A DNA stretch of 60,834 bases, taken from a virus. Positions 1-22,778 of the stretch are shown here, piece by piece (positions within the stretch are counted from its first letter, which is position 1; each line of letters opens with the position of its first letter). The translations under genes were made by a program, and so were the position numbers. Below the pieces are notes generated by a model. The model did not search any database. It was given only the letters and a program-made list of their open reading frames with translations, and was not told where the DNA came from. The stretch lies in IMG/VR virus record IMGVR_UViG_3300044972_001994, positions 1 to 60,834 of that record; one strand, 5' to 3'.

Positions 1-971
1 CTTACTCTGAATATGTAGCTGAGAACTTAGACAAATCTGTAGAATATTCTAAATATTTAGCAGAAAAAGTAGACGAGTCTATCCAATACTCAGAATACGT
101 AGCAGAAAAAGTAGATACTAATATCTCTTACTCTGAATACTTAGCTGAAAATCTTGATAGAGGAATTTCTTATTCTGAATATCTAGCTGAAAAAGTAGAT
201 CAAGGAATTGGATACAGTGAATACATCGCAGAAAAATTAGATCAAGGAATCGGATACACTGAATACCTAGCAGAAAATGTTAACAAAGGTATCGCTTATT
301 CTGAATATCTAGCTGAGAATTTGAACAAAGGAATTTCTTATTCAGATTATTTAGCTGAGAAGATCAAAAACAATATCGCTTACTCTGAGTATATCGCAGA
401 AAATGTAAACACTACATTTGCAGGTAGCATCAATGAAAGTGAAAACCCAAGAGAAAAGGCAGACCTTGCTTCAAGCGCAGGTCTATTCGAATCTGGATTT
501 GCAGGAGATTACACAACAATCTCTTCTAAGATAGATTCACTTATAGAATCAGTTCAAACCCAAAAAACTGAAACCCTTACCAAAACAGTTGCTGAAAGAA
601 TGCAACCAGCTGCTCAAACCCAAAAGGCAGAACAAGCTCTAAACGAAAGTGAGGAGACAGAACAAAAACCAAGTTCAGGACACAAATTCGTAGACGAAGC
701 TCCGGCAGAATACGCTCAGATTTGGGAAAGTCTAAACGAAGGACACAAACAATCTTTGATTGCTCAAGCGTCTTTCTACAATTTAGAAACCCCTTATCAG
801 ATCAAAAACTTCTGGTCAACACGTCAACTTGGTAGAAACATTGGTCTTCAAAAATTAGTTGAAAGCGAAAGTATCGAAACACCAGTAGAGAGAACAACAA
901 CTAAAGCTTATTCTAACGAATATTTAAACTTTATTGCAGAATCTTTAAATGGTAAATTCCTAAAAAAATAA
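1..971 (+). CDS. Prohead core/scaffold-like protein with 14-residue repeats (5' partial)
   Basis: The reading frame is open from base 3 to the stop at 971, so the start lies upstream of the window; the TTG at 321 is only an internal Leu codon. The visible N-terminal part is ten tandem 14-residue repeats of the type YSEYLAENLDKGIS. A low-complexity Glu/Gln/Thr-rich linker follows, then a C-terminal region ending in FIAESLNGKFLKK. The repeats look helical and amphipathic. Several sites fit the T4 gp21 cleavage rule (I/L)-x-E|(S/G/A): INES, LNES, LNEG and IAES. It lies directly before the major capsid gene, where T4 carries its core genes (21, 22), which suggests a gp22-like prohead core protein. 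The role is inferred from position, composition and cleavage-like sites; no sequence homology to gp22 was established. Confidence 0.6.
   Translation, partial: YSEYVAENLDKSVEYSKYLAEKVDESIQYSEYVAEKVDTNISYSEYLAENLDRGISYSEYLAEKVDQGIGYSEYIAEKLDQGIGYTEYLAENVNKGIAYSEYLAENLNKGISYSDYLAEKIKNNIAYSEYIAENVNTTFAGSINESENPREKADLASSAGLFESGFAGDYTTISSKIDSLIESVQTQKTETLTKTVAERMQPAAQTQKAEQALNESEETEQKPSSGHKFVDEAPAEYAQIWESLNEGHKQSLIAQASFYNLETPYQIKNFWSTRQLGRNIGLQKLVESESIETPVERTTTKAYSNEYLNFIAESLNGKFLKK
3..422 (+). repeat. Ten tandem 42-bp (14-residue) coding repeats
   Basis: Ten in-frame units of exactly 42 bp. The consensus is Y-S-E-Y-(L/V/I)-A-E-(N/K)-(L/V)-(D/N)-x-(G/S/N)-I-x. Every unit keeps the (L/V/I)-A-E triplet. 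Units differ at synonymous sites, so the array is old rather than freshly amplified. It may extend upstream of the window. Confidence 0.95.
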
Positions 972-996: not shown

Positions 997-2709
997 ATGA
1001 AACTTATTAACGAACAAGAAATTTTTGATACATGGTCTCCAATCATCGAGTCTAAAACTGGTATCAACGATTCATCAAAAACTCAGTGGTTAGCTAAATA
1101 TTGCCATTACCACTCATTAAACGAATCTGCCGGTGCTTACAACTCTTTAGCAGTTGTTAACGGTATGGGTGCAGTTACACCTCCAAACTTCCCAGGATCT
1201 ACTTTAGGTGCTGTTAGTAACGGTGGTCTTACCCCTAACCAAGGATTCTACAGCTCAACCTGGCAAGGTTCTGGCGATAAATTCCCTTCATTACTTCCAT
1301 TAGCTATTCAAGTAGCTGCGAAGACTGTAGGATTTGATATCGTTCCAGTTATCCCTATGTCTGGTCCTTCTGGAGTATTATCTTACTTAGATTATGTGTA
1401 TGCTGGTGGTAAAATCAGTCCTAGCTCTGCTGGAACTACAGCTGCTGAAGCTTTAGCAGTTGCTCCTACAATGATTAAAGTTCCTGTAGGTTCTACAGCT
1501 TCTGCTTTAGTAGTAGGTACTGTTTACTACATCGCTGCTGCTACTTCTGCAGGTGCTGCTTTAACTACTGCTTTCGTAGGTTACTCTAGAATCGATGGCT
1601 TCCCAATCTTCAGAATCACTGGGGTTACTGCAGGTGAAACTGTTGCTGATATCGTAGCTGCTGGTTCTACAATCGGTACAGGAAGTGCAGGTAGTGTTAC
1701 TGGCGGTGGATATGCTACTGGAGTTGCTCAATTGGTTAAAGCATTAGAAGATCACATCCAAGGTTTCTCTGGAGCTGGTTTCTATGACAACCAAGCTTAC
1801 CAAGGTCCATACGTAGATGGTACTAAGTCTTACAATCCAATGTTGAGATCTGTTGCGGAAAGCACTTATTACAACTCAATGGGTCTAACAACTTTCACCA
1901 AATTCGTTGAAGCTGACACTTTCCAAGTAGCTGCTTCTGTAACAACTGAGCAAATCCAAGATTTGAACAAACAGTTTGGTATTGATGTTATCTCTATGAT
2001 CGAGAATGCATTGGTAAATGAGGTTTCTCAAGCTATCAACAAGCACATCTTATCTAGAGCATTCCAATTAGGATGGTCTAACTGTTACAACTTCAACGCA
2101 ATTGAAGGTCAAAACTTAAACCTTAACCTTGTAATAGGCGGTGCTACTTCTGGTTCTACTGCTCTAGATTACTTAGGAAAAGAAGATACTCAATTGTTCA
2201 TGTCAATTCCAGGAGGTCCTGCATCAGGTACATACGAGAACTTATCAACTCTACAAAGAAGATTATTCTCTAGAATCCTGGCAGCTGCTAACGTTGTAGC
2301 TAATAGAGGTAGAAGAGGTCCAGCTAACTTCATCGTTACTAACGCTAACCTAGCGTCTGCAATGCAAGATATTAGCCAATTCACTTTCGCTCCATTTGCT
2401 AACACTTTAACTCAAAACAACGGAACTCTATATCCAGTAGGTTCTCTAGCTGGTATGACAGTATATGTTGACCAGAACATGAGATTCTCTGATAACAGAA
2501 TCCTAGTAGGTAGAAAAGGTGGCGACGACGAACCAGGTCTTAAATTCATGCCTTACATGATGGCGGAGTCAATCCAAACCATCTCTGAAGGTACTATGTC
2601 TCCTAAGATCGCAGTTAAATCAAGATACGCATTAGTAGAAGCAGGTTTCAACCCAGAAACTTTATACTTCACTTTCTACGTTCAAACTCCAGTTGGAGGA
2701 TTAAACTAA
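997..2709 (+). CDS. gp23: Major capsid protein, T4 gp23-like
   Basis: 570 residues, compared with 521 for T4 gp23. The C-terminal half has features I recognise from gp23: RGRRGPANFIVTNANLASAM, a segment around GSLAGMTVYVDQNMRFSDN, and GLKFMPYMMAESIQT followed by KSRYALVEAGFNPETLYF. The N-terminus carries SLNE|S at residues 40-44, matching the gp21 protease rule, so the mature protein probably starts at Ser44. Residues about 145-245 form an Ala/Gly/Thr/Val-rich insertion that may be a surface domain. Asn and Phe codons are mostly AAC and TTC, unlike most neighbours, as expected for a very highly expressed gene. A strong terminator follows. The start is ATG after an A-rich leader with no Shine-Dalgarno sequence. 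Confidence 0.93.
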   Translation: MKLINEQEIFDTWSPIIESKTGINDSSKTQWLAKYCHYHSLNESAGAYNSLAVVNGMGAVTPPNFPGSTLGAVSNGGLTPNQGFYSSTWQGSGDKFPSLLPLAIQVAAKTVGFDIVPVIPMSGPSGVLSYLDYVYAGGKISPSSAGTTAAEALAVAPTMIKVPVGSTASALVVGTVYYIAAATSAGAALTTAFVGYSRIDGFPIFRITGVTAGETVADIVAAGSTIGTGSAGSVTGGGYATGVAQLVKALEDHIQGFSGAGFYDNQAYQGPYVDGTKSYNPMLRSVAESTYYNSMGLTTFTKFVEADTFQVAASVTTEQIQDLNKQFGIDVISMIENALVNEVSQAINKHILSRAFQLGWSNCYNFNAIEGQNLNLNLVIGGATSGSTALDYLGKEDTQLFMSIPGGPASGTYENLSTLQRRLFSRILAAANVVANRGRRGPANFIVTNANLASAMQDISQFTFAPFANTLTQNNGTLYPVGSLAGMTVYVDQNMRFSDNRILVGRKGGDDEPGLKFMPYMMAESIQTISEGTMSPKIAVKSRYALVEAGFNPETLYFTFYVQTPVGGLN

Positions 2710-3877: not shown

Positions 3878-4741
3878 ATGACTACTTTAAAATTCACAGA
3901 TTGGGATAAAGCTTATTATTCTATAGATGAATCCTTAGGGGAGAACATCCATAACTGGCTGAGCAAAAACTTCGGAGGTAAAGTTAGTGAAATAGACGGA
4001 ATTCTTTCTGACATAGTTCGTGCAGAGAAGGAGTATTCTAAGGAATGGGAAAAACTAGAACTTGAAAATGATTCCATGAAATCCCAAATAGAATCAGGAA
4101 GCTTAGAAGAGAAAGAAGAGAAAGAACTAAGGAAGAAGATAAAAAACAATACAGAGTTAATTTCTATTTCTCTAAGAAAAAAGAACCAAAAGGTTAGAGT
4201 ACTGGATTCGAAAGGTGATAAAATAGTTCAAGGAAATCCTAGACTTAGTAAATACTGGGAGCTAAAAAAAGCAGAATCTGATCTAGAAATAATAGAAAAT
4301 CTTTATAAAATATCCAAGAACCTTTCGGACAAAGGGATTCAAGATGATCTATATGGAAAATATAAAAGATCATATTCTTCTCTACAAGGCAAAAAAGAAA
4401 AAGCCGAAAAGGTAGAAAAAGAAATTGACACAGAAGAGGATTCCTCTTATGATGATTCTGAGCTTGAATCACTTATCTCTATGAGTAATTCTAAATTCAG
4501 AGATGAGACTGAAGAATATTCTCCAAGAGAGATAAAATCTCTCAAGAGGGATTTAATAAATCAAAAGAATTCTTATATGAACGATTTAAGAATGCTCAAA
4601 AAGAGAAAAGAGAAAGAATCAAGTTCTGCTTCAACTTCTAGGGAAAGAAAGGAAATAACTACTAAGTTTAGCCCTAAGATCTCTGCATTAGGAGATAGAA
4701 TAGATAGAATAAGAGAAAAAATTGCAATTCTAAATGACTAA
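3878..4741 (+). CDS. Tagged head protein, charged helical
   Basis: 287 residues. The N-terminus MTTLKFTDWDKAYYSIDES contains an I-D-E|S site at residues 16-19, matching the (I/L)-x-E cleavage rule. The remainder is very rich in Lys, Glu and Ser and predicted mostly helical or coiled-coil. Composition resembles the preceding gene, so the two may be distant paralogues. Its stop overlaps the next gene's start region by 8 nt (4734-4741), indicating coupled translation. An internal head protein is inferred from the tag and context; no family recognised. Confidence 0.5.
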   Translation: MTTLKFTDWDKAYYSIDESLGENIHNWLSKNFGGKVSEIDGILSDIVRAEKEYSKEWEKLELENDSMKSQIESGSLEEKEEKELRKKIKNNTELISISLRKKNQKVRVLDSKGDKIVQGNPRLSKYWELKKAESDLEIIENLYKISKNLSDKGIQDDLYGKYKRSYSSLQGKKEKAEKVEKEIDTEEDSSYDDSELESLISMSNSKFRDETEEYSPREIKSLKRDLINQKNSYMNDLRMLKKRKEKESSSASTSRERKEITTKFSPKISALGDRIDRIREKIAILND

Positions 4742-5021
4742 TTTAATTACCAGATATAAAAATTTCCTTTTTGAAGCAGAAGGAATGAATGCTAAAATAG
4801 AACAAACAAAACTTGAAATAGCAAAAATTCATGACGAAATTACAGCTGCAAAAGAGGAGGCAAAGGCTAAGAAAAAAGCAGACCCAAATAACGTTGCTGC
4901 AGACATAGATAGCATTAAGAAGCAAGCAGTTTCTTATGGAAAATTACCAGCTCTAATGACAACTCTTGCGACTCAGATGGCGGAATCAGCTAAACAAAAA
5001 AGTTCTGCAAACATTTACTAA
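4734..5021 (+). CDS. Small tagged head protein
   Basis: 95 residues. The N-terminus MTNLITRYKNFLFEAEGMN is a close match to the tag shared by this block: basic/hydrophobic start, aromatic-x-x-F, then L-F-E|A at residues 12-15. The body is a short Lys/Ala/Glu-rich helix around residues 20-50 and a second helix near the C-terminus. It overlaps the preceding gene by 8 nt. Size and composition are like small internal head proteins; the function after packaging is unknown. Confidence 0.5.
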   Translation: MTNLITRYKNFLFEAEGMNAKIEQTKLEIAKIHDEITAAKEEAKAKKKADPNNVAADIDSIKKQAVSYGKLPALMTTLATQMAESAKQKSSANIY

Positions 5022-5030
5022 CAGAATCAT

Positions 5031-7448
5031 ATGACACCAAAATATTTAAATACCAACCCTATAGCAAAGATGATGTCTTTGGAAACTCTTAGAATTTTCG
5101 AAAACGAATCTGTTGACGAGTTGATGCAAAAAATATCAACTTCTTTATTTGATATTTTTAAAAAAGTAACCGTAGATTTTTCAACACCGAAGCAAAGAAA
5201 AATCACAACAGTTAAGGAGAAATTAAAAGACACAGCAAATTCTTCATCTCTAAAATCGATGGTAGCAAAGATGAAAGATTATGCAAAAGAATCAGAGCTG
5301 GAACATTCTTCTTTTGCCGATGTTAAATCTCTTTATATTGATGGAATGGAACAACTTGCAGATTCTTTAAAAAGATCTGTTGAAGTTGACCCTAAACTGG
5401 AAGACAAAATCATCAAATATTTTCAAACCAGAACCACTAGGTATGTTCAAGCTTTAGACCAAGCTTATAAGCACGAAAAAGAAGCTTTGAATGAATCTGT
5501 TCAGATGGGATTGAAAGGGAGAGTTAATTCTTTAAAGAATAAATTACAGAAAGTTCTAATCCCAGAATCTGTTGGAAAAACCGACGATAATGGATATGGA
5601 AGAAACTGGCACAGAATTTTCAGTGAAATCGATCAGAAACTTTCGGTTATTGATGGAAAGAAAGAAATTTCTAACGAGAAAGAAAAGAAAGCTTTGAAAG
5701 ATCTAGAATCACAAACCGATAAATTATCTAAAGAATTCTATACATATTGCATTAAAGCTACTGAAGCTCCTTTTAAAAAGATCCTATCCGACGACGAAAT
5801 ATCTTCTAAATTCGAGGATGTAAAAGAAATTCTTTCTGGAGCACTTGACGTTTTAACTAGAGCTACTGTGGAAGAAGCTAGCGTGGAAGACCGAACTAGA
5901 GAGAAAATGGAAGGTCACGACAAGAAGGTTACTTCTATGGTTTTTCCTATTAAAGTTGGAGATAAAGACACAGATAAGAAATTTAAGGAATCTCTAATCA
6001 TTGCAAACGTTCAGAAAGCTCTAATGAATGCTTTTCCTCCGATTAAAGATCTTCTTGTTAAAAGAGGAGGAGCGGACGGTAAATTTACCTCAGCTTTCGA
6101 AGTAGCCATTAAATCTCTACAAGGAGTTCTTGGAAATAAAAATGTTAGTGGTGAACTTGATAGAAATTTACTTGACATCATTTTGGATGCTGATAAGATT
6201 TCAAATTCAGATAAAGAATCTATCGCTGACAGTTTAGACATTCTAAGAAAAGAATATGTTAACGAGAGCATAGAATTTATGAAAGGAAAATCTGTCGATG
6301 CAAGAATTTTAAATTCTTCACAGTTTTTTGGCCTTGTAAACGAATCCTCTATCCACATTGATGCAGATAAATTAGCTTCAGAAGTAGAGAAATATGAGAA
6401 AGAACTTTCTGAACCTGCAACTTCCAAAGGCGGAAGATCTGCTTTGGGCCACGGAGACAATTCAGATAACACAGATTTAGCTTACACTCTTGCTAAAATT
6501 TTAAGAAGCAAAGGGTTAGTTAAAGATGCGGAAGAAGAAACCTTCTTAAGAGAAGATGGATCTCTCAGAGCATCATATACCCCAGAATTTATGAATGGAT
6601 GGATTAAAACTGCTGAGGAAGCAGATAAAAATGATCCCCCTTTATATTTTTGGGTTGATTTCAAAGGAAGTAAAATAGATGGATTATATGCTTCTAGAAG
6701 ACTTTCAACTAGTGCAAAGAAACCTTGCAACTGGCCTAAGTGGAGTGAAATTGCAGGAGATACTGATAGCGAGGACGTTAAGAATTTTTCCGAATGGTAT
6801 ACAAGCTATTACTCTAATTTTGGAGGAATCGATACGAATTCTTTAACTTCCCTTGCTAAATCTATTTTTGATTACAACAGAGAAGAAAAAGAAGAAAATA
6901 GCAAAGTTTACGATAAACTTTATTCTTATTTTGGAACTAAAGAATATAAAACCAATTATGTTCCTTCTGATGTTCTAGAGTCAATCAAAAGTGCATTTAG
7001 AAGAGGGTCTCAAGTCGATGAGAAAATTCAAGACTTAACCGAATCTGATTTTGGACTACTTGCAAATTTAATAGCATTCAATGCTACAACTTTTACCTTT
7101 GATAGCAAGGGAGATAAATTTGTTCCTGTTTTAGAAATAATAATGGATGAGATTTTAACAGAATCGGAACTTAAAAAATTATCTTCTGAAGAAATTCTTG
7201 CTTCTGACGAACCAAGTTCAGATCAAGTTGCAATTCTAGACACTAAAAAAGGAATCAGAAAAGCTAACAAACAAGATAGAGAATCAGGGGAAAGCAGAAA
7301 TAAATCTGTATTTGAACACAATTTAAAAGAAGCTAAAACTCATCATCTACCAATTGTTGAAAAACAAGTTGCTAGAATGAACGCTAAAACTTCTGACGAT
7401 CTTTCAAAAAGAGAATCTAAGAGAATCTATAAGGTTCCTATCGAATAA
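5031..7448 (+). CDS. Large probable head-associated protein
   Basis: 805 residues, mostly helical and charged, no transmembrane segment, no recognised domain. Near the N-terminus the sequence MMSLETLRIFENES contains I-F-E|N and E-N-E|S. If translation began at Met14 or Met15 (about 5070) instead of Met1, this segment would lie in the same position as the tags of neighbouring genes. Another LNES occurs at about residues 153-156. It sits inside the run of tagged genes and is probably packaged or processed too. A large internal virion protein is the best guess, by context only. Confidence 0.45.
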   Translation: MTPKYLNTNPIAKMMSLETLRIFENESVDELMQKISTSLFDIFKKVTVDFSTPKQRKITTVKEKLKDTANSSSLKSMVAKMKDYAKESELEHSSFADVKSLYIDGMEQLADSLKRSVEVDPKLEDKIIKYFQTRTTRYVQALDQAYKHEKEALNESVQMGLKGRVNSLKNKLQKVLIPESVGKTDDNGYGRNWHRIFSEIDQKLSVIDGKKEISNEKEKKALKDLESQTDKLSKEFYTYCIKATEAPFKKILSDDEISSKFEDVKEILSGALDVLTRATVEEASVEDRTREKMEGHDKKVTSMVFPIKVGDKDTDKKFKESLIIANVQKALMNAFPPIKDLLVKRGGADGKFTSAFEVAIKSLQGVLGNKNVSGELDRNLLDIILDADKISNSDKESIADSLDILRKEYVNESIEFMKGKSVDARILNSSQFFGLVNESSIHIDADKLASEVEKYEKELSEPATSKGGRSALGHGDNSDNTDLAYTLAKILRSKGLVKDAEEETFLREDGSLRASYTPEFMNGWIKTAEEADKNDPPLYFWVDFKGSKIDGLYASRRLSTSAKKPCNWPKWSEIAGDTDSEDVKNFSEWYTSYYSNFGGIDTNSLTSLAKSIFDYNREEKEENSKVYDKLYSYFGTKEYKTNYVPSDVLESIKSAFRRGSQVDEKIQDLTESDFGLLANLIAFNATTFTFDSKGDKFVPVLEIIMDEILTESELKKLSSEEILASDEPSSDQVAILDTKKGIRKANKQDRESGESRNKSVFEHNLKEAKTHHLPIVEKQVARMNAKTSDDLSKRESKRIYKVPIE

Positions 7449-7452
7449 AATT

Positions 7453-8208
7453 ATGATGAAAAGAATTTACTCATTTAGAGAATTTATTTTAGAAGCAGAA
7501 ATGTCTATTAGTAACCCAGAAGAAGCTGGAGATAAATTTGCTAAAATATTAGGTGATCATAAAGACACTAAAGAATCCCCCAAAGGATCTAATAAGGGAC
7601 CCGAAGTTACTGCTTATCTTAAAAGCACAGGACTTCCTGGAGGAAACCCTTGGTGCATGGCGTTTGTTTATTATGTTTTTCAAGAACTATCTAAATCATT
7701 AGGAACTACGAATCCTCTAGTAAAAACTGCAGGGGTTAAGGATCATTGGAATAAAGCGGATAAAAGCTTAAAAATTGATATAGCTAAAGCTAAAGCAGAT
7801 CCTAGTCTAGTTAAACCCGGTCAAATCTTTATTATGAGCCGTCCTGGAGCAGGTCTAGGGCATACGGGAATTGTTCTAAGCGTGGATCCTTCTGCAAAAA
7901 CTATTACTACCATAGAGGGAAACACCAACGATCAAAAGTCTGGAGAGGGAGATAGAGTTGGTATAAACAAAAGACCTTTGAATGGAACACCTTTCTTAGG
8001 ATTCATCGATTATTTTAAGTCAAAAAGAACCCCAGAGTTCGAAAAAAATATAGTAAAAGCTTTGAGTCCTAGCGAGCTTGGAAAAATTTCTACACTTTCT
8101 GCTTCTAAATCCTCTGATTTTCCTGAGGCGGGTGTTACCATTCCAATAAGCGCAGAAGCTATTTTGAAAGCCTGGGCAGAATCAGAAAAAAATCCTATAA
8201 AATTCTAG
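7453..8208 (+). CDS. CHAP/NlpC-like peptidase with capsid-targeting-like tag
   Basis: 251 residues. Residues 1-16, MMKRIYSFREFILEAE, are the clearest match in the window to the T4 capsid-targeting sequence, with I-L-E|A at 12-15. The body has a papain-like amidohydrolase signature: NPWCMAFVYYVF with the candidate nucleophile Cys68, GHTGIVLSV with His137, and TTIEGNTND supplying the third polar residue around 155-157. Such domains cleave peptide crosslinks of peptidoglycan. There is no signal peptide. With the tag it may be carried inside the head and delivered on infection; alternatively it is an ordinary lysis enzyme. The domain is well supported; packaging is inference. Confidence 0.75.
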   Translation: MMKRIYSFREFILEAEMSISNPEEAGDKFAKILGDHKDTKESPKGSNKGPEVTAYLKSTGLPGGNPWCMAFVYYVFQELSKSLGTTNPLVKTAGVKDHWNKADKSLKIDIAKAKADPSLVKPGQIFIMSRPGAGLGHTGIVLSVDPSAKTITTIEGNTNDQKSGEGDRVGINKRPLNGTPFLGFIDYFKSKRTPEFEKNIVKALSPSELGKISTLSASKSSDFPEAGVTIPISAEAILKAWAESEKNPIKF

Positions 8209-8857: not shown

Positions 8858-10258
8858 ATGTGTGGAATATTATTAACTCTAGATGGATCCGAATCTTCTC
8901 TAGGCTCAATTAAACATCGCGGGATAGAAAGAACAGTGGTTGAGAAGAATGGCGTGTTCTTATGTCACCATAGGCTCCCTATACAGACAGAAGATGGGGA
9001 TACTTGGAACCAACCAAGAGAAATATCCCCTGGAATTTATCTAATGTTCAACGGAGAGATTTTTAACTATGATAGGGTAGTTTATTCTTCAGATACAGAA
9101 TATCTTTGTACCCTCTTCGGAATGTATAAAGGTGGATCTTTTGAATTATTTACTGCTTTGTTCCTTCCACATATTCAATTATGGGATGGATTCTGGGCTA
9201 TCGTTATCTACGATTCGAATACAGGAGACATAATTTCTTTCACAGATCCACTCGGAAAGAAACCTTTATACTATAGCGAGAATGGAGAAATATGTTCAGA
9301 GATAAAAGGTCTTGCATACAATCAAAGTCCAATAGATCAAGTTTTCATTTCCGAAACTAGAAAATGGGGATACAATACTGATAACAGAACTCCATACACT
9401 GACGTAAAGAGATTTATACCAAATACAATTTACTACTACAATATAAAATCTCCAGATTTTAAAACCACTTACCCTGCTTATTATAAACTTTGGGATTCCC
9501 CTATTCCAGAACTTTATGAAAAGTCCTACGAAGATCACATGGATTGGCTTTGGAGAAAAATGATAGAGTCAGTTCAGAATAGATTGATCTCTAAAAATTA
9601 TCCAATCTCCCTCTTAATTTCAGGTGGTTTAGATTCTTCTATTATTGCAGCAATTCTTCAAGGAACAGACACTGATGTTACTTGGTATAGCATAGAAAAT
9701 GGAGAATCCGAATTTGTAAATATCTTATCCGAGAAATTTGACAAGAAAGTAAATTTTCTAAAGTATGATATGGATGATTCTTTGAATCAAATAATCTATC
9801 AATACTGGAACGAAACTCCTATTGATTTAGGATCTGTTATACCCCAGTATCATCTCTTCAAAGCAATCAAAGATAATAGCGACCATAGAATTGTTATAAG
9901 TGGGGACGGAGCAGATGAGTTATTTGGTGGATATAGAAGAATTCACGAGTATGATTCACAGGCTTCTGATATTTTTGAAGAGCTAACATATTACCATCTT
10001 CCAAGATTAGATAAAATGTCAATGGCTCATACTCTAGAATTGAGAAGTCCTTTTCTAAATCTAGAGATTGTTAGATTTGCTTTAAATCTTCCCCTTGAAT
10101 GGAGAAAGGATAAAAAAATTCTAAAAGATACTTTTGCTCCACTTCTCCCAGAGGAGATTATAAATAGGGATAAAGCTCCTCTTAAAAATCCAGGCATCAA
10201 GGAAGACAAGATAGCATACAGATATAAAGCCATAGATTTATTTCTCCAAGGTAGATAA
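8858..10258 (+). CDS. asnB: Asparagine synthetase (glutamine-hydrolysing), class II amidotransferase
   Basis: 466 residues, somewhat shorter than cellular AsnB (usually over 500). The glutaminase half starts with the catalytic Cys2 (MCGI) and keeps RLPI (39-42), FNGEIFNY (64-71) and SDTEY (78-82). The synthetase half has the PP-loop SGGLDSS (255-261), SGDGADELFGGY (348-359) and MAHTLELRSPFLN (389-401). Both sites look intact, so it should transfer ammonia from glutamine to a carboxylate, classically aspartate to asparagine with ATP to AMP. It lies in a late head-gene block 3 nt after a P-loop kinase-like gene. It could supply Asn for the Asn-rich virion proteins or amidate another acceptor; the acceptor is not decidable from sequence. 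Confidence 0.9.
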   Translation: MCGILLTLDGSESSLGSIKHRGIERTVVEKNGVFLCHHRLPIQTEDGDTWNQPREISPGIYLMFNGEIFNYDRVVYSSDTEYLCTLFGMYKGGSFELFTALFLPHIQLWDGFWAIVIYDSNTGDIISFTDPLGKKPLYYSENGEICSEIKGLAYNQSPIDQVFISETRKWGYNTDNRTPYTDVKRFIPNTIYYYNIKSPDFKTTYPAYYKLWDSPIPELYEKSYEDHMDWLWRKMIESVQNRLISKNYPISLLISGGLDSSIIAAILQGTDTDVTWYSIENGESEFVNILSEKFDKKVNFLKYDMDDSLNQIIYQYWNETPIDLGSVIPQYHLFKAIKDNSDHRIVISGDGADELFGGYRRIHEYDSQASDIFEELTYYHLPRLDKMSMAHTLELRSPFLNLEIVRFALNLPLEWRKDKKILKDTFAPLLPEEIINRDKAPLKNPGIKEDKIAYRYKAIDLFLQGR

Positions 10259-19567: not shown

Positions 19568-21943
19568 ATGGGAATTAAAGCAACAGATAAAAATAGGTCC
19601 TTATTTCTAAAAGGGTTTAATCTTTCTAATTCAGGAGCGAATGAGGATCCAACCTATCTTGGATTTAAGTTTGTATTTGATTTTGGATCTCTTCCGGTAA
19701 ATCTGGAATATGGATGGGCCCCGAGTCCTTTACTAAGAATCCCCAATTATACAAGTGTAAATGGTGCTGCCAATATGCCAAAAAATTTATTTGGTCAACC
19801 TCAGTACCAAAACGTAAATAGCAATGTTACCTATTATTCTGCTTATAATTATTTGCTTGAGAGAGATGGTTCTTATAGAGGATCAAATGGTCTAAAAAGA
19901 GCAAATGCTTTAAAACAATTTCAAATCCTTCTCAATAACATAAATTCAAATGCTCCTTGGTTTTTTCAATCCATAGATGGTCTAGATAAACTTGAACAAA
20001 TTGCTCTTTCCGGATTTCAAGACGAACAGGGTATGGATTCTTTCGATCCTGCAAGAACAAACAGGAAGACACTGAAAATAAATTGTTTAGAATCTTTAAA
20101 TTTAAGAATGACAGCTCTTGCAAATCTATATAATCAAGCAACTTTTGATGCTGATAATATGAGATGGCTTGTTCCTAGAAATTTGAGAAAATTCACAATG
20201 TGGATTTACGTAACGGAGATTAGAAATTTTTTCAAAACGACTAGATTAACTGGAACTTCTGCTGTAATTTCACAATTAGATGATCTTACTTCTTTACTTA
20301 CTAGCGACAGAAACCCAGGAGGAGCTATTTCAAATACCCCAGAAGGAGAAAGACAACCATCTGGCCCAGGTGCACCTGGAAATGCTTTCAATTCATTTGC
20401 TAGAGGAGTTTTATCCCAATCTGGACTAATGAACGAAGTAGATTCTTTTAGAAACCAGCAAGATCAAAGCGGGATAAAACCAGTTTTAATTTATGAGCTA
20501 AGTCAATGTGAATTCGATTTTAGTGAAAGTACCCCATTACAAACTTCTGTAGATGTAGGGATACAACCAAATGCAGCTACCCAATCTTTTAAGATCCACG
20601 TTGGAAAGGTTAGAATGAAAACTCAATTCCCCAACATCAGAACGGATAATAATTATCTTGTACTTGCAGATGGATACGATCAAAATAAAAGCTCGGTTCA
20701 AATTTATTCTGACACTTTAGATTTAGAAACCATCGTTAGCTTAGGAAGGGAGGCACTAACTAACATCACATCTCAAGCTATTAGTGATCTTATAAACGAA
20801 GGAATTAGTCAGCTTGTAAACCCAACTACTTCTGGTATCGATCAAACTTCACTCGGAAATATCTACACTTTTAACCCTTCCCAATTAGCCAGATTGACCA
20901 ATCAAGGTGGCCAATTTGGATTTAACAATGCTCAGAATTTTTTAAATGGGGCAGCAGATACAGGTATAGATAATGTATTTAAAGGAAATCTACCTACACC
21001 TCAATCAATGGGTCTTGGTGGTCCACCGGATAGACTTTACCCAATTATACAAACGGATAAAGACGTTTATTCTGGGGTTCCAGGACCAGATCTAGGTGTT
21101 CCTGGAAGAGTTTATCCTGCACCAGGTGGAGACGTTTATTCTGGGGTTCCGGGACCAGATCTAGGAGTTCCCGACAGAGTTTATCCTGCACCAGGTGGAG
21201 ATGTTTATCCAGACGTTCCTGGTCCAGATCTAGGTGTTCCTGGAAGAGTTTATCCTGCACCAGGTGGAGACGTTTATTCTGGGGTTCCGGGACCAGATCT
21301 AGGAGTTCCCGACAGAGTTTATCCTGCACCAGGTGGGGACGTTTATTCTGGAGTTCCTGGACCAGATCTTGGGGTTCCTGATAGAGTTTATGTTGATCCA
21401 ACAGGAGATGTTTATCCAAATTCTCCGGGCAGGGATCTTGGAGTTCCTGATAGAGTTTATGTTGATCCAGCAGGAGATGTTTATCCAAATTCTCCAGGAA
21501 GAGATCTTGGAGTTCCAGATAGAGTTTATGTTGATCCAGCAGGAGATGTTTATCCTACTGTTCCAGGAGGAGATCTTGGGGTTCCGGATAGAGTTTATAA
21601 AGACCCTTCTGGAAAAGTCTACCCGGATCCAGCAGGAGCTTCAATATTTCCTGGCCAAGATATAGGAAAAGTTTATTCTCCAGGGACTTTAATTTCTTCG
21701 GGATCTGAATTAAGATCTCCTGAAAATACCTTTCCTTCACCTCCTTCTCCAGTTTATGCACCACCGACGTTTAACTATCAGAGAGGGGAGATTGGAAAAA
21801 TTTACCCACCGACATCTGGGGACTTTATTGCAATGGCTCCTATTGATTTAGGAAACACCAAAGGTCCAGATAAATTTAACATAAGTCTTGGAACTTTAAA
21901 TCCACCAGACCAAACTGATTCACCAACTAGTCCAATAATATAA
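19568..21943 (+). CDS. Baseplate/tail protein with 23-residue Pro/Gly repeats
   Basis: 791 residues. The N-terminal 480 residues are a structural domain: YLGFKFVFDFGSLPVNLEYG at about 32-51, RNLRKFTMWIYVTEIRNFF at about 203-221, and ELSQCEFDFSESTPLQTSVD at about 316-335, which suggest a tail-tube or hub-cap-like fold. Residues about 499-682 are eight 23-residue repeats, followed by a degenerate ninth unit and a Pro-rich tail. It sits between the hub-like gene and the gp5-like spike gene, 1 nt before the latter, so it probably forms part of the central baseplate. The repeats may be an extended stalk or a ruler-like linker (inference). Confidence 0.6.
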   Translation: MGIKATDKNRSLFLKGFNLSNSGANEDPTYLGFKFVFDFGSLPVNLEYGWAPSPLLRIPNYTSVNGAANMPKNLFGQPQYQNVNSNVTYYSAYNYLLERDGSYRGSNGLKRANALKQFQILLNNINSNAPWFFQSIDGLDKLEQIALSGFQDEQGMDSFDPARTNRKTLKINCLESLNLRMTALANLYNQATFDADNMRWLVPRNLRKFTMWIYVTEIRNFFKTTRLTGTSAVISQLDDLTSLLTSDRNPGGAISNTPEGERQPSGPGAPGNAFNSFARGVLSQSGLMNEVDSFRNQQDQSGIKPVLIYELSQCEFDFSESTPLQTSVDVGIQPNAATQSFKIHVGKVRMKTQFPNIRTDNNYLVLADGYDQNKSSVQIYSDTLDLETIVSLGREALTNITSQAISDLINEGISQLVNPTTSGIDQTSLGNIYTFNPSQLARLTNQGGQFGFNNAQNFLNGAADTGIDNVFKGNLPTPQSMGLGGPPDRLYPIIQTDKDVYSGVPGPDLGVPGRVYPAPGGDVYSGVPGPDLGVPDRVYPAPGGDVYPDVPGPDLGVPGRVYPAPGGDVYSGVPGPDLGVPDRVYPAPGGDVYSGVPGPDLGVPDRVYVDPTGDVYPNSPGRDLGVPDRVYVDPAGDVYPNSPGRDLGVPDRVYVDPAGDVYPTVPGGDLGVPDRVYKDPSGKVYPDPAGASIFPGQDIGKVYSPGTLISSGSELRSPENTFPSPPSPVYAPPTFNYQRGEIGKIYPPTSGDFIAMAPIDLGNTKGPDKFNISLGTLNPPDQTDSPTSPII
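21062..21613 (+). repeat. Eight tandem 69-bp repeats (23 residues each)
   Basis: Eight exact-length in-frame units with a core of the form DVYSGVPGPDLGVPDRVY followed by PAPGG, VDPTG, VDPAG or KDPSG. Units 2 and 4 are identical in protein and units 6 and 7 also, indicating recent duplication or gene conversion. A degenerate ninth unit follows. The array creates long spurious open frames on both strands. Confidence 0.97.
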
Positions 21944-21944
21944 T

Positions 21945-22778
21945 ATGGCAAATCCTCACGTTCATCTCGGAGAAATAGTAGATATAAATGATCCTCTTAA
22001 ACAAGGGAGGGCTAGGGTCAGAGTGTTCGGTTTTTTTGACGAACTTGAAATTGAAGACATTCCCTGGGCAGAACAGATTTCTGGTCTTTCTTTTTCATCT
22101 TCTTTAGGTAGTGGAAATATTTCAATTCCTAGACTAGGAGCAGTGGTCAATACCCAATTTGATGGAGTTAATTACTATAAAATATTCTATGAATTTGAGA
22201 AAGAAACTGCCCCAGCTCTGCTAGATGAAATATCTAATTCTTATGAGGGAGCTCAATCTCTAATTTATGACACGGATGCTGTTAATTCAAATGGAGATAC
22301 TGGATTGAAATTATTTTTCACCAGGGGAGAAAACGGTAAAGGATTCGTTTCGGATTTTGGTGGTAGCATGCTAAACATCAGAATGGATAGTTCGGTCTAT
22401 CTGAACTCAAATTCTAAAGTACCGGGTGCTAATGTCATTCACATCAAGGATGGAAAGATTAGTTTAGGTTTAGAAAACGAAAGTAAACAACCAGCAGTTT
22501 TAGGGGATCATAACGAAAGTGCTCTAAATTCCTTATTGAGTAGACTTAACGAAGTAATGATTGCTTTGCAGACTTATTCTATTGCTCAAACTGCAGTTAC
22601 CTCTGCAATACCTATATTTTCACCACTTATTCCTGCTTTAACGGTTTTGAATACACAGATAGCAGCAGCTCAAAGCCAACTGACAAGCATTACTGCACCA
22701 ATGATAGAGACAACAAAATCCAAGACCGTTTCCATCGGAGGTGAGGGGGATGGGATTAATCCAATCACAAAACTATAA
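21945..22778 (+). CDS. gp5: gp5/VgrG-like baseplate spike protein
   Basis: 277 residues. The N-terminal 75 residues have the gp5/phage-baseplate-V OB-fold pattern: HLGEIVDINDPLKQGRARVR, VFG, IPWAEQISG, PRLGAVVNTQFDGVNYY. Further beta segments continue to about residue 180 and may form the spike stem. T4 gp5's lysozyme domain is absent, as in many gp5/gpV relatives. The C-terminus has a helical stretch (about 190-255) and ends VSIGGEGDGINPITKL. It should form the trimeric membrane-puncturing spike at the hub centre. Confidence 0.8.
   Translation: MANPHVHLGEIVDINDPLKQGRARVRVFGFFDELEIEDIPWAEQISGLSFSSSLGSGNISIPRLGAVVNTQFDGVNYYKIFYEFEKETAPALLDEISNSYEGAQSLIYDTDAVNSNGDTGLKLFFTRGENGKGFVSDFGGSMLNIRMDSSVYLNSNSKVPGANVIHIKDGKISLGLENESKQPAVLGDHNESALNSLLSRLNEVMIALQTYSIAQTAVTSAIPIFSPLIPALTVLNTQIAAAQSQLTSITAPMIETTKSKTVSIGGEGDGINPITKL

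Follow-up and report, generated by a model that had tools for sequence, protein, structure and literature searches.

A 251-residue CHAP-domain peptidase, encoded in a 60,834-nucleotide stretch of viral DNA (IMG/VR record IMGVR_UViG_3300044972_001994; hereafter the window), begins with a short segment that matches the capsid-targeting tags of T4 internal proteins in kind. On balance we lean toward the enzyme being a head-loaded, protease-trimmed peptidoglycan hydrolase that is probably ejected with the DNA. The parts of this reading differ in strength. Judged from the sequence, packaging in the head and trimming are likely, and once packaging is granted, peptidoglycan at entry is a fairly probable target, the site of action being the weakest step. 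The tag itself is more than chance and is not special to the CHAP enzyme, as about 28 protein families carry it. If the reading is correct, a cell-wall hydrolase is placed in the head of a contractile-tailed phage, cargo may bind to a core built of repeats of its own tag, and a simple sequence rule would predict which unknown giant-phage proteins travel inside the particle.

The gene (7453..8208, plus strand) is real, and its coordinates, strand and start are as an earlier note on this DNA had given them. The open reading frame has 251 codons and an ATG-ATG start, no alternative ATG, GTG or TTG start lies upstream in its open frame, and the opposite strand carries many stops. It starts 4 nt past the stop of the gene for an 805-aa head-module protein (5031..7448, plus strand), and in this phage CHAP is inside the head operon. 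An asparagine-synthase-like gene, named by eye, also lies within this module (8858-10258) and is kept in the related records G002 and G004. The location of the CHAP gene is different in the relatives. G002 has a gene of similar size (836 aa) in place of the 805-aa gene, with no CHAP between it and the ATPase-like gene. None was seen in the corresponding stretch of G004, where the large head gene was missed by the ORF caller. In G002, G004 and the other loci listed, CHAP is located elsewhere, away from head genes, and this lack of a head-gene neighbourhood in the relatives examined is a point against head loading. Across relatives, it is the tag and not the neighbourhood that is the constant.

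The catalytic domain spans residues 63-157 (7639..7923, plus strand) and matches Pfam PF05257 with 45.3 bits over a cut-off of 26 (E=1.2e-11). The earlier note had called the protein a CHAP-like peptidase with Cys68 and His137; both residues are where it put them, and an alignment of 11 sequences shows no variation at either, nor at Glu155 and Asn157. The part played by the latter two is presumed from this conservation and from the biochemistry of CHAP endolysins. Five PHROGs labelled "endolysin" also match, while TIGR02594 (28.1 bits) stays below its curated cut-off of 70.55. For the predicted structure (mean pLDDT 79, from 11 sequences), VIA-align superposes residues 18 to 192 on LysIME-EF1, a CHAP endolysin, over 138 residues (Z 12.9, rmsd 2.9 A), which leaves the tag beyond the edge of the CHAP domain. 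The best structural matches are endolysins: LysK, LysGH15, LysIME-EF1 and PlyGRCS. Because Foldseek on the PDB is weak (best E 3e-3, TM at most 0.42 for endolysin rows), the structural reading rests on VIA-align and Pfam. From these data the protein is a predicted peptidoglycan hydrolase and should cut the bacterial cell wall. The C-terminal extension (residues 195-251; 8035..8205, plus strand) is mostly modelled at low confidence, and Pfam at E<=1 gives CHAP alone, with no peptidoglycan-binding domain beside it. LysK, LysGH15, LysIME-EF1 and PlyGRCS are lysis enzymes with extra binding domains, and endolysins with a single domain also exist. The CHAP protein shares their fold and catalytic Cys-His, and differs from them in its head-type tag and in having no binding domain that we could find.

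The CHAP domain, the endolysin PHROGs and the endolysin structural matches are what one would expect if the protein were an ordinary late endolysin, whose N-terminal helix is either accidental or a leader kept by descent that plays no part in packaging. We consider this unlikely; the missing binding domain argues against it, as does the behaviour of the tag itself. The tag, MMKRIYSFREFILE (residues 1-14; 7453..7494, plus strand), is a predicted capsid-targeting propeptide on the basis of conservation, the match to T4 IPII and IPIII and the L/I-x-E rule. Residues 4 and 7 of T4 IPIII matter for targeting and residues 8 and 10 for processing, and the T4 protease gp21 cleaves after L/I-x-E (PMC9026906). 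IPII and IPIII both begin with MKTYQEFIAEA, with IPIII cut as MKTYQEFIAE/A. The CHAP tag matches all four key positions in kind (FREFILEA against YQEFIAEA), and this predicts a mature N-terminus at Ala15, in agreement with the earlier note, with a cut after Glu14 at a gp21-type I-x-E site, so that the full tag would read MMKRIYSFREFILE/AE.

Conservation follows the same line. A scan of viral contigs yielded 20 confirmed CHAP loci from 25 stretches, and the tag is present in 16 of them (L001-L016). These 16 close relatives all keep it, which speaks against an incidental helix. They have eight distinct N-termini, seven of which fit the strict pattern [FYW]xx[FYW][ILV]xE within residues 2-23; L016 fails through a one-residue insertion. 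The tag is absent from L017-L020, four proteins that are 46-49% identical. G002 encodes another CHAP paralogue, probably from a GTG start, that is tagged as well (VKILSFSEYLFES), and unrelated enzymes also have the tag; both points argue against an ordinary endolysin. Among bacterial CHAPs, the nearest come from Ignavibacteria and Bacteroidetes assemblies (53-57% identity); where the phage protein has its tag, they have a longer N-terminal region, which we read by eye as peptidoglycan-binding. The earlier note had called this the best capsid-targeting-like tag of the window. A tag it is, though "best" holds only with qualification, since the strict pattern occurs in two of 44 window ORFs, the other encoding a 95-aa head-module protein with the same class of tag (YKNFLFE/A; 4734..5021, plus strand), and the CHAP protein ranks third in the window on a profile of scaffold repeats. 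As a separate observation, runs of adjacent genes in L002, L004, L006 and L016 encode proteins with an MKxLxxFxLFE-like tag at the start and the residues (S/A)ADLGELGF at the end; the latter may be a C-terminal tag.

To place the tag among other proteins, ORFs from five records (G004, G002, G008, G001 and the window) were called mechanically, with an ATG start, at least 70 aa and overlaps pruned. Such a set may include spurious ORFs and leaves genes out; the GTG-start CHAP of G002, for example, is called truncated. With scaffolds removed, the strict pattern is found at the N-terminus of 38 of 1205 ORFs and in 38 of 9930 internal windows (odds ratio 8.5). The rise is limited to the first 20 residues, with counts by 20-residue bin of 38, then 8, 9, 2, 4, 4, 4, 6, 0 and 3. 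With CHAP genes removed too, 34 of 1199 ORFs remain against 38 of 9877 internal windows. Not one of 143 tail and neck genes is tagged, against 34 of 1056 genes elsewhere (P=0.012). The related records are not independent, and clustering into families is a partial correction: 28 of 711 families are tagged, where 200 draws of internal windows gave a mean of 5.5 and a maximum of 13. As a control, the strict pattern matches three of 217 T4 ORFs, two of which are IPII and IPIII; it misses IPI and Alt. In a Pfam scan of ten tagged proteins, six matched a family (adenylate kinase, RimK-like ATP-grasp, OmpA, AAA_5, RNase_T and GDPD) and four had no match. The adenylate kinase, at G004:142406-143035 (FNEFLNE) and G002:128426-129052 (FEQFLNE), would be an odd head cargo.

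The tag also has a counterpart in the scaffold. An S77 protease fused to a scaffold is encoded directly before the capsid gene in G002 and G004, and an S77 prohead protease is present in four of ten related records, namely all of those above 280 kb. The window includes only the C-terminal, scaffold end of this fused gene (3..971, plus strand; start outside the window), recognised by its motif and by the whole genes of G002 and G004, with tandem 14-residue repeats at 3-422. It is followed by the gp23-like major capsid protein (997..2709, plus strand; Pfam Gp23, 2.1e-38), which has a candidate cut site, LNE/S, at residue 43. The scaffold is a tandem array with the consensus unit YSEYLAENLDKNIS and a 14-residue period; the motif has 64 matches in five scaffolds, mostly at 14-residue spacing, and each unit contains the tag pattern together with a possible cleavage site. 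The tag core FREFILEA (residues 8-15; 7474..7497, plus strand) is, by motif comparison, of the same class as the scaffold repeat YSEYLAEN; the tag resembles a single unit of the scaffold attached to a cargo protein. A profile built from scaffold repeats only was rejected as a tag detector. It is too narrow, separating N-termini from interiors by about 2-2.5-fold at most thresholds and giving the window CHAP a low score of 0.8, and this weak enrichment counts against head loading. The likeness of tag and scaffold therefore rests on four positions and not on close identity. The five scaffolds with the motif include those of 642-kb and 735-kb phage records, which have long 14-residue repeat arrays (L102:3806-5905 and L105:3490-5913), and the LR756500 scaffold has two motif matches; no array was found in the ORFs called in the head regions of Lak-A2, PTm1, PAU, MaF61 and MA9V-1.

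An untagged Amidase_2 is found in three of 11 records (G004, G005 and G006, whose matches are nearly identical and which may be close relatives; the N-terminus was read in G004 only). Where present, it is a better lysis candidate than CHAP and argues against an endolysin role for the latter. The G004 Amidase_2 has no homologue but itself among the 1205 ORFs. Phage_lysozyme is found in none of 11 records, and M15_4 and M23 (PF13539 and PF01551) each gave no match in six of six; a search with PF05838 was uninformative, as the control genomes had no match. In the other eight of 11 records (G000, G001, G002, G003, G007, G008, G009 and G010), mostly fragments, CHAP is the sole lysin seen among the families tested, which favours the endolysin alternative. 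CHAP could be the lysin of these eight, and a lysis role, alone or besides head cargo, may exist.

Expression was approached through an upstream motif, GATATATA, which lies mostly 10-39 nt ahead of starts. Of 1163 starts in G004, G002, G008 and G001, 149 have it within 80 nt, against 0.10-0.12 per strand-kb overall, a promoter-like distribution. Because it precedes head and tail genes, we read it as a putative late promoter. Of the tagged genes, 18 of 36 have it in the 80 nt before the start, compared with 131 of 1127 untagged ones (P=4e-8); it is also there at six of nine CHAP loci checked. The window CHAP, which follows a head-module gene by 4 nt, has no GATATATA upstream. The Amidase_2 gene has the motif as well, and timing therefore cannot separate cargo and lysis roles.

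Head packaging is supported because the tag is conserved, resembles that of IPII and IPIII, is enriched at N-termini only and is absent from tail genes, and because the scaffold repeats the same motif, the long relatives have a prohead protease and three records hold an untagged lysin candidate. From this we infer the following course of infection. First, CHAP would be made alongside the proteins of the head. The helix at its N-terminus, FREFILEA, would then join the prohead core, sharing the pattern of the scaffold tandem units (YSEYLAEN...), and the scaffold-linked S77 protease would cut after [ILV]-x-E, in the scaffold units as well as in the tag. Mature CHAP, beginning at Ala15, would be freed inside the head, leave it with the DNA and most likely cut peptidoglycan stem-peptide bonds near the entry site. 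More broadly, the giant phages of this group may have a general cargo system, in which the scaffold is a string of 10-14 short units, one such unit at the N-terminus of a protein loads it into the prohead and the same protease removes the unit, with dozens of enzymes including CHAP delivered into the host. We hold the chances of this to be evenly balanced; if true, a large protein payload is delivered to the host.

Whether the substrate would be the wall is a matter on which the T4 comparison weighs against us, since the head proteins of T4 end up inside the cell, on the wrong side of the wall. CHAP might then be head cargo for the cytoplasm, where precursors of peptidoglycan or some other peptide would be its substrate. 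Its closest relatives in bacteria have the look of wall hydrolases, and to our knowledge no CHAP cuts peptidoglycan precursors, which makes this rather improbable. It does accord with the cytosolic look of other tagged proteins (adenylate kinase, RimK-like ATP-grasp and the RNase_T exonuclease) and with T4 internal proteins and fusions reaching the host cell (PMC9026906). It is very unlikely that the tag serves not head loading but some general N-terminal assembly, localisation or inhibitory function in this phage group: about 28 tagged families, including metabolic enzymes unexpected in a head, would suit such a role, but the tag matches IPII and IPIII, the scaffold repeat and the protease rule, and is missing from tail genes.

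The preferred reading, head loading of a wall hydrolase, has partial parallels. As in T4 IPII and IPIII, CHAP has a short N-terminal tag of the form aromatic-xx-aromatic-aliphatic-x-Glu and the L/I-x-E cut rule, and an S77-family protease is present, here in long relatives. Unlike in T4, the cargo is a CHAP peptidase with four extra residues before the tag core, protease and scaffold form one fusion protein whose scaffold part is a tandem array of the motif, and packaging is predicted. A precedent for a wall-cutting domain in the head is T7 gp16, an ejected internal protein with a transglycosylase domain (PMC8954989); carriage of such an activity in the head is shown for T7 and proposed for CHAP. 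The two differ in that gp16 is a large core protein of a podovirus, has another fold and is not known to have a capsid-targeting tag of this kind. In P1, an N-terminal segment directs DarB into the head, as proposed here for CHAP, and the spike is without lysozyme, whereas the wall-cutting domain is on the tape measure and DarB is not a wall hydrolase (PMC9024508). Our literature search found no report of capsid targeting combined with an endolysin, which leaves absence from print unproven.

The earlier note had suggested that the phage, with a gp5-like spike that has no lysozyme domain, may have shifted this activity to the head. The head packaging that it proposed is well backed, if indirectly, by the tag, scaffold repeats, protease and enrichment, and its description of the spike stands: the 277-aa gp5-like protein (21945..22778, plus strand) matches baseplate PHROGs and no Pfam family at E<=1. 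Ten large tail-region proteins contain no lysin domain at E<=0.01. The relocation itself is rejected because an enzyme packed in the head comes out only once the tail tube is open and cannot simply replace a tail lysozyme. Just ahead of the spike gene, at 19568-21943, a tail-region protein consists in part of many tandem copies of a unit like DVYSGVPGPDLGVPGRVYPAPGG.
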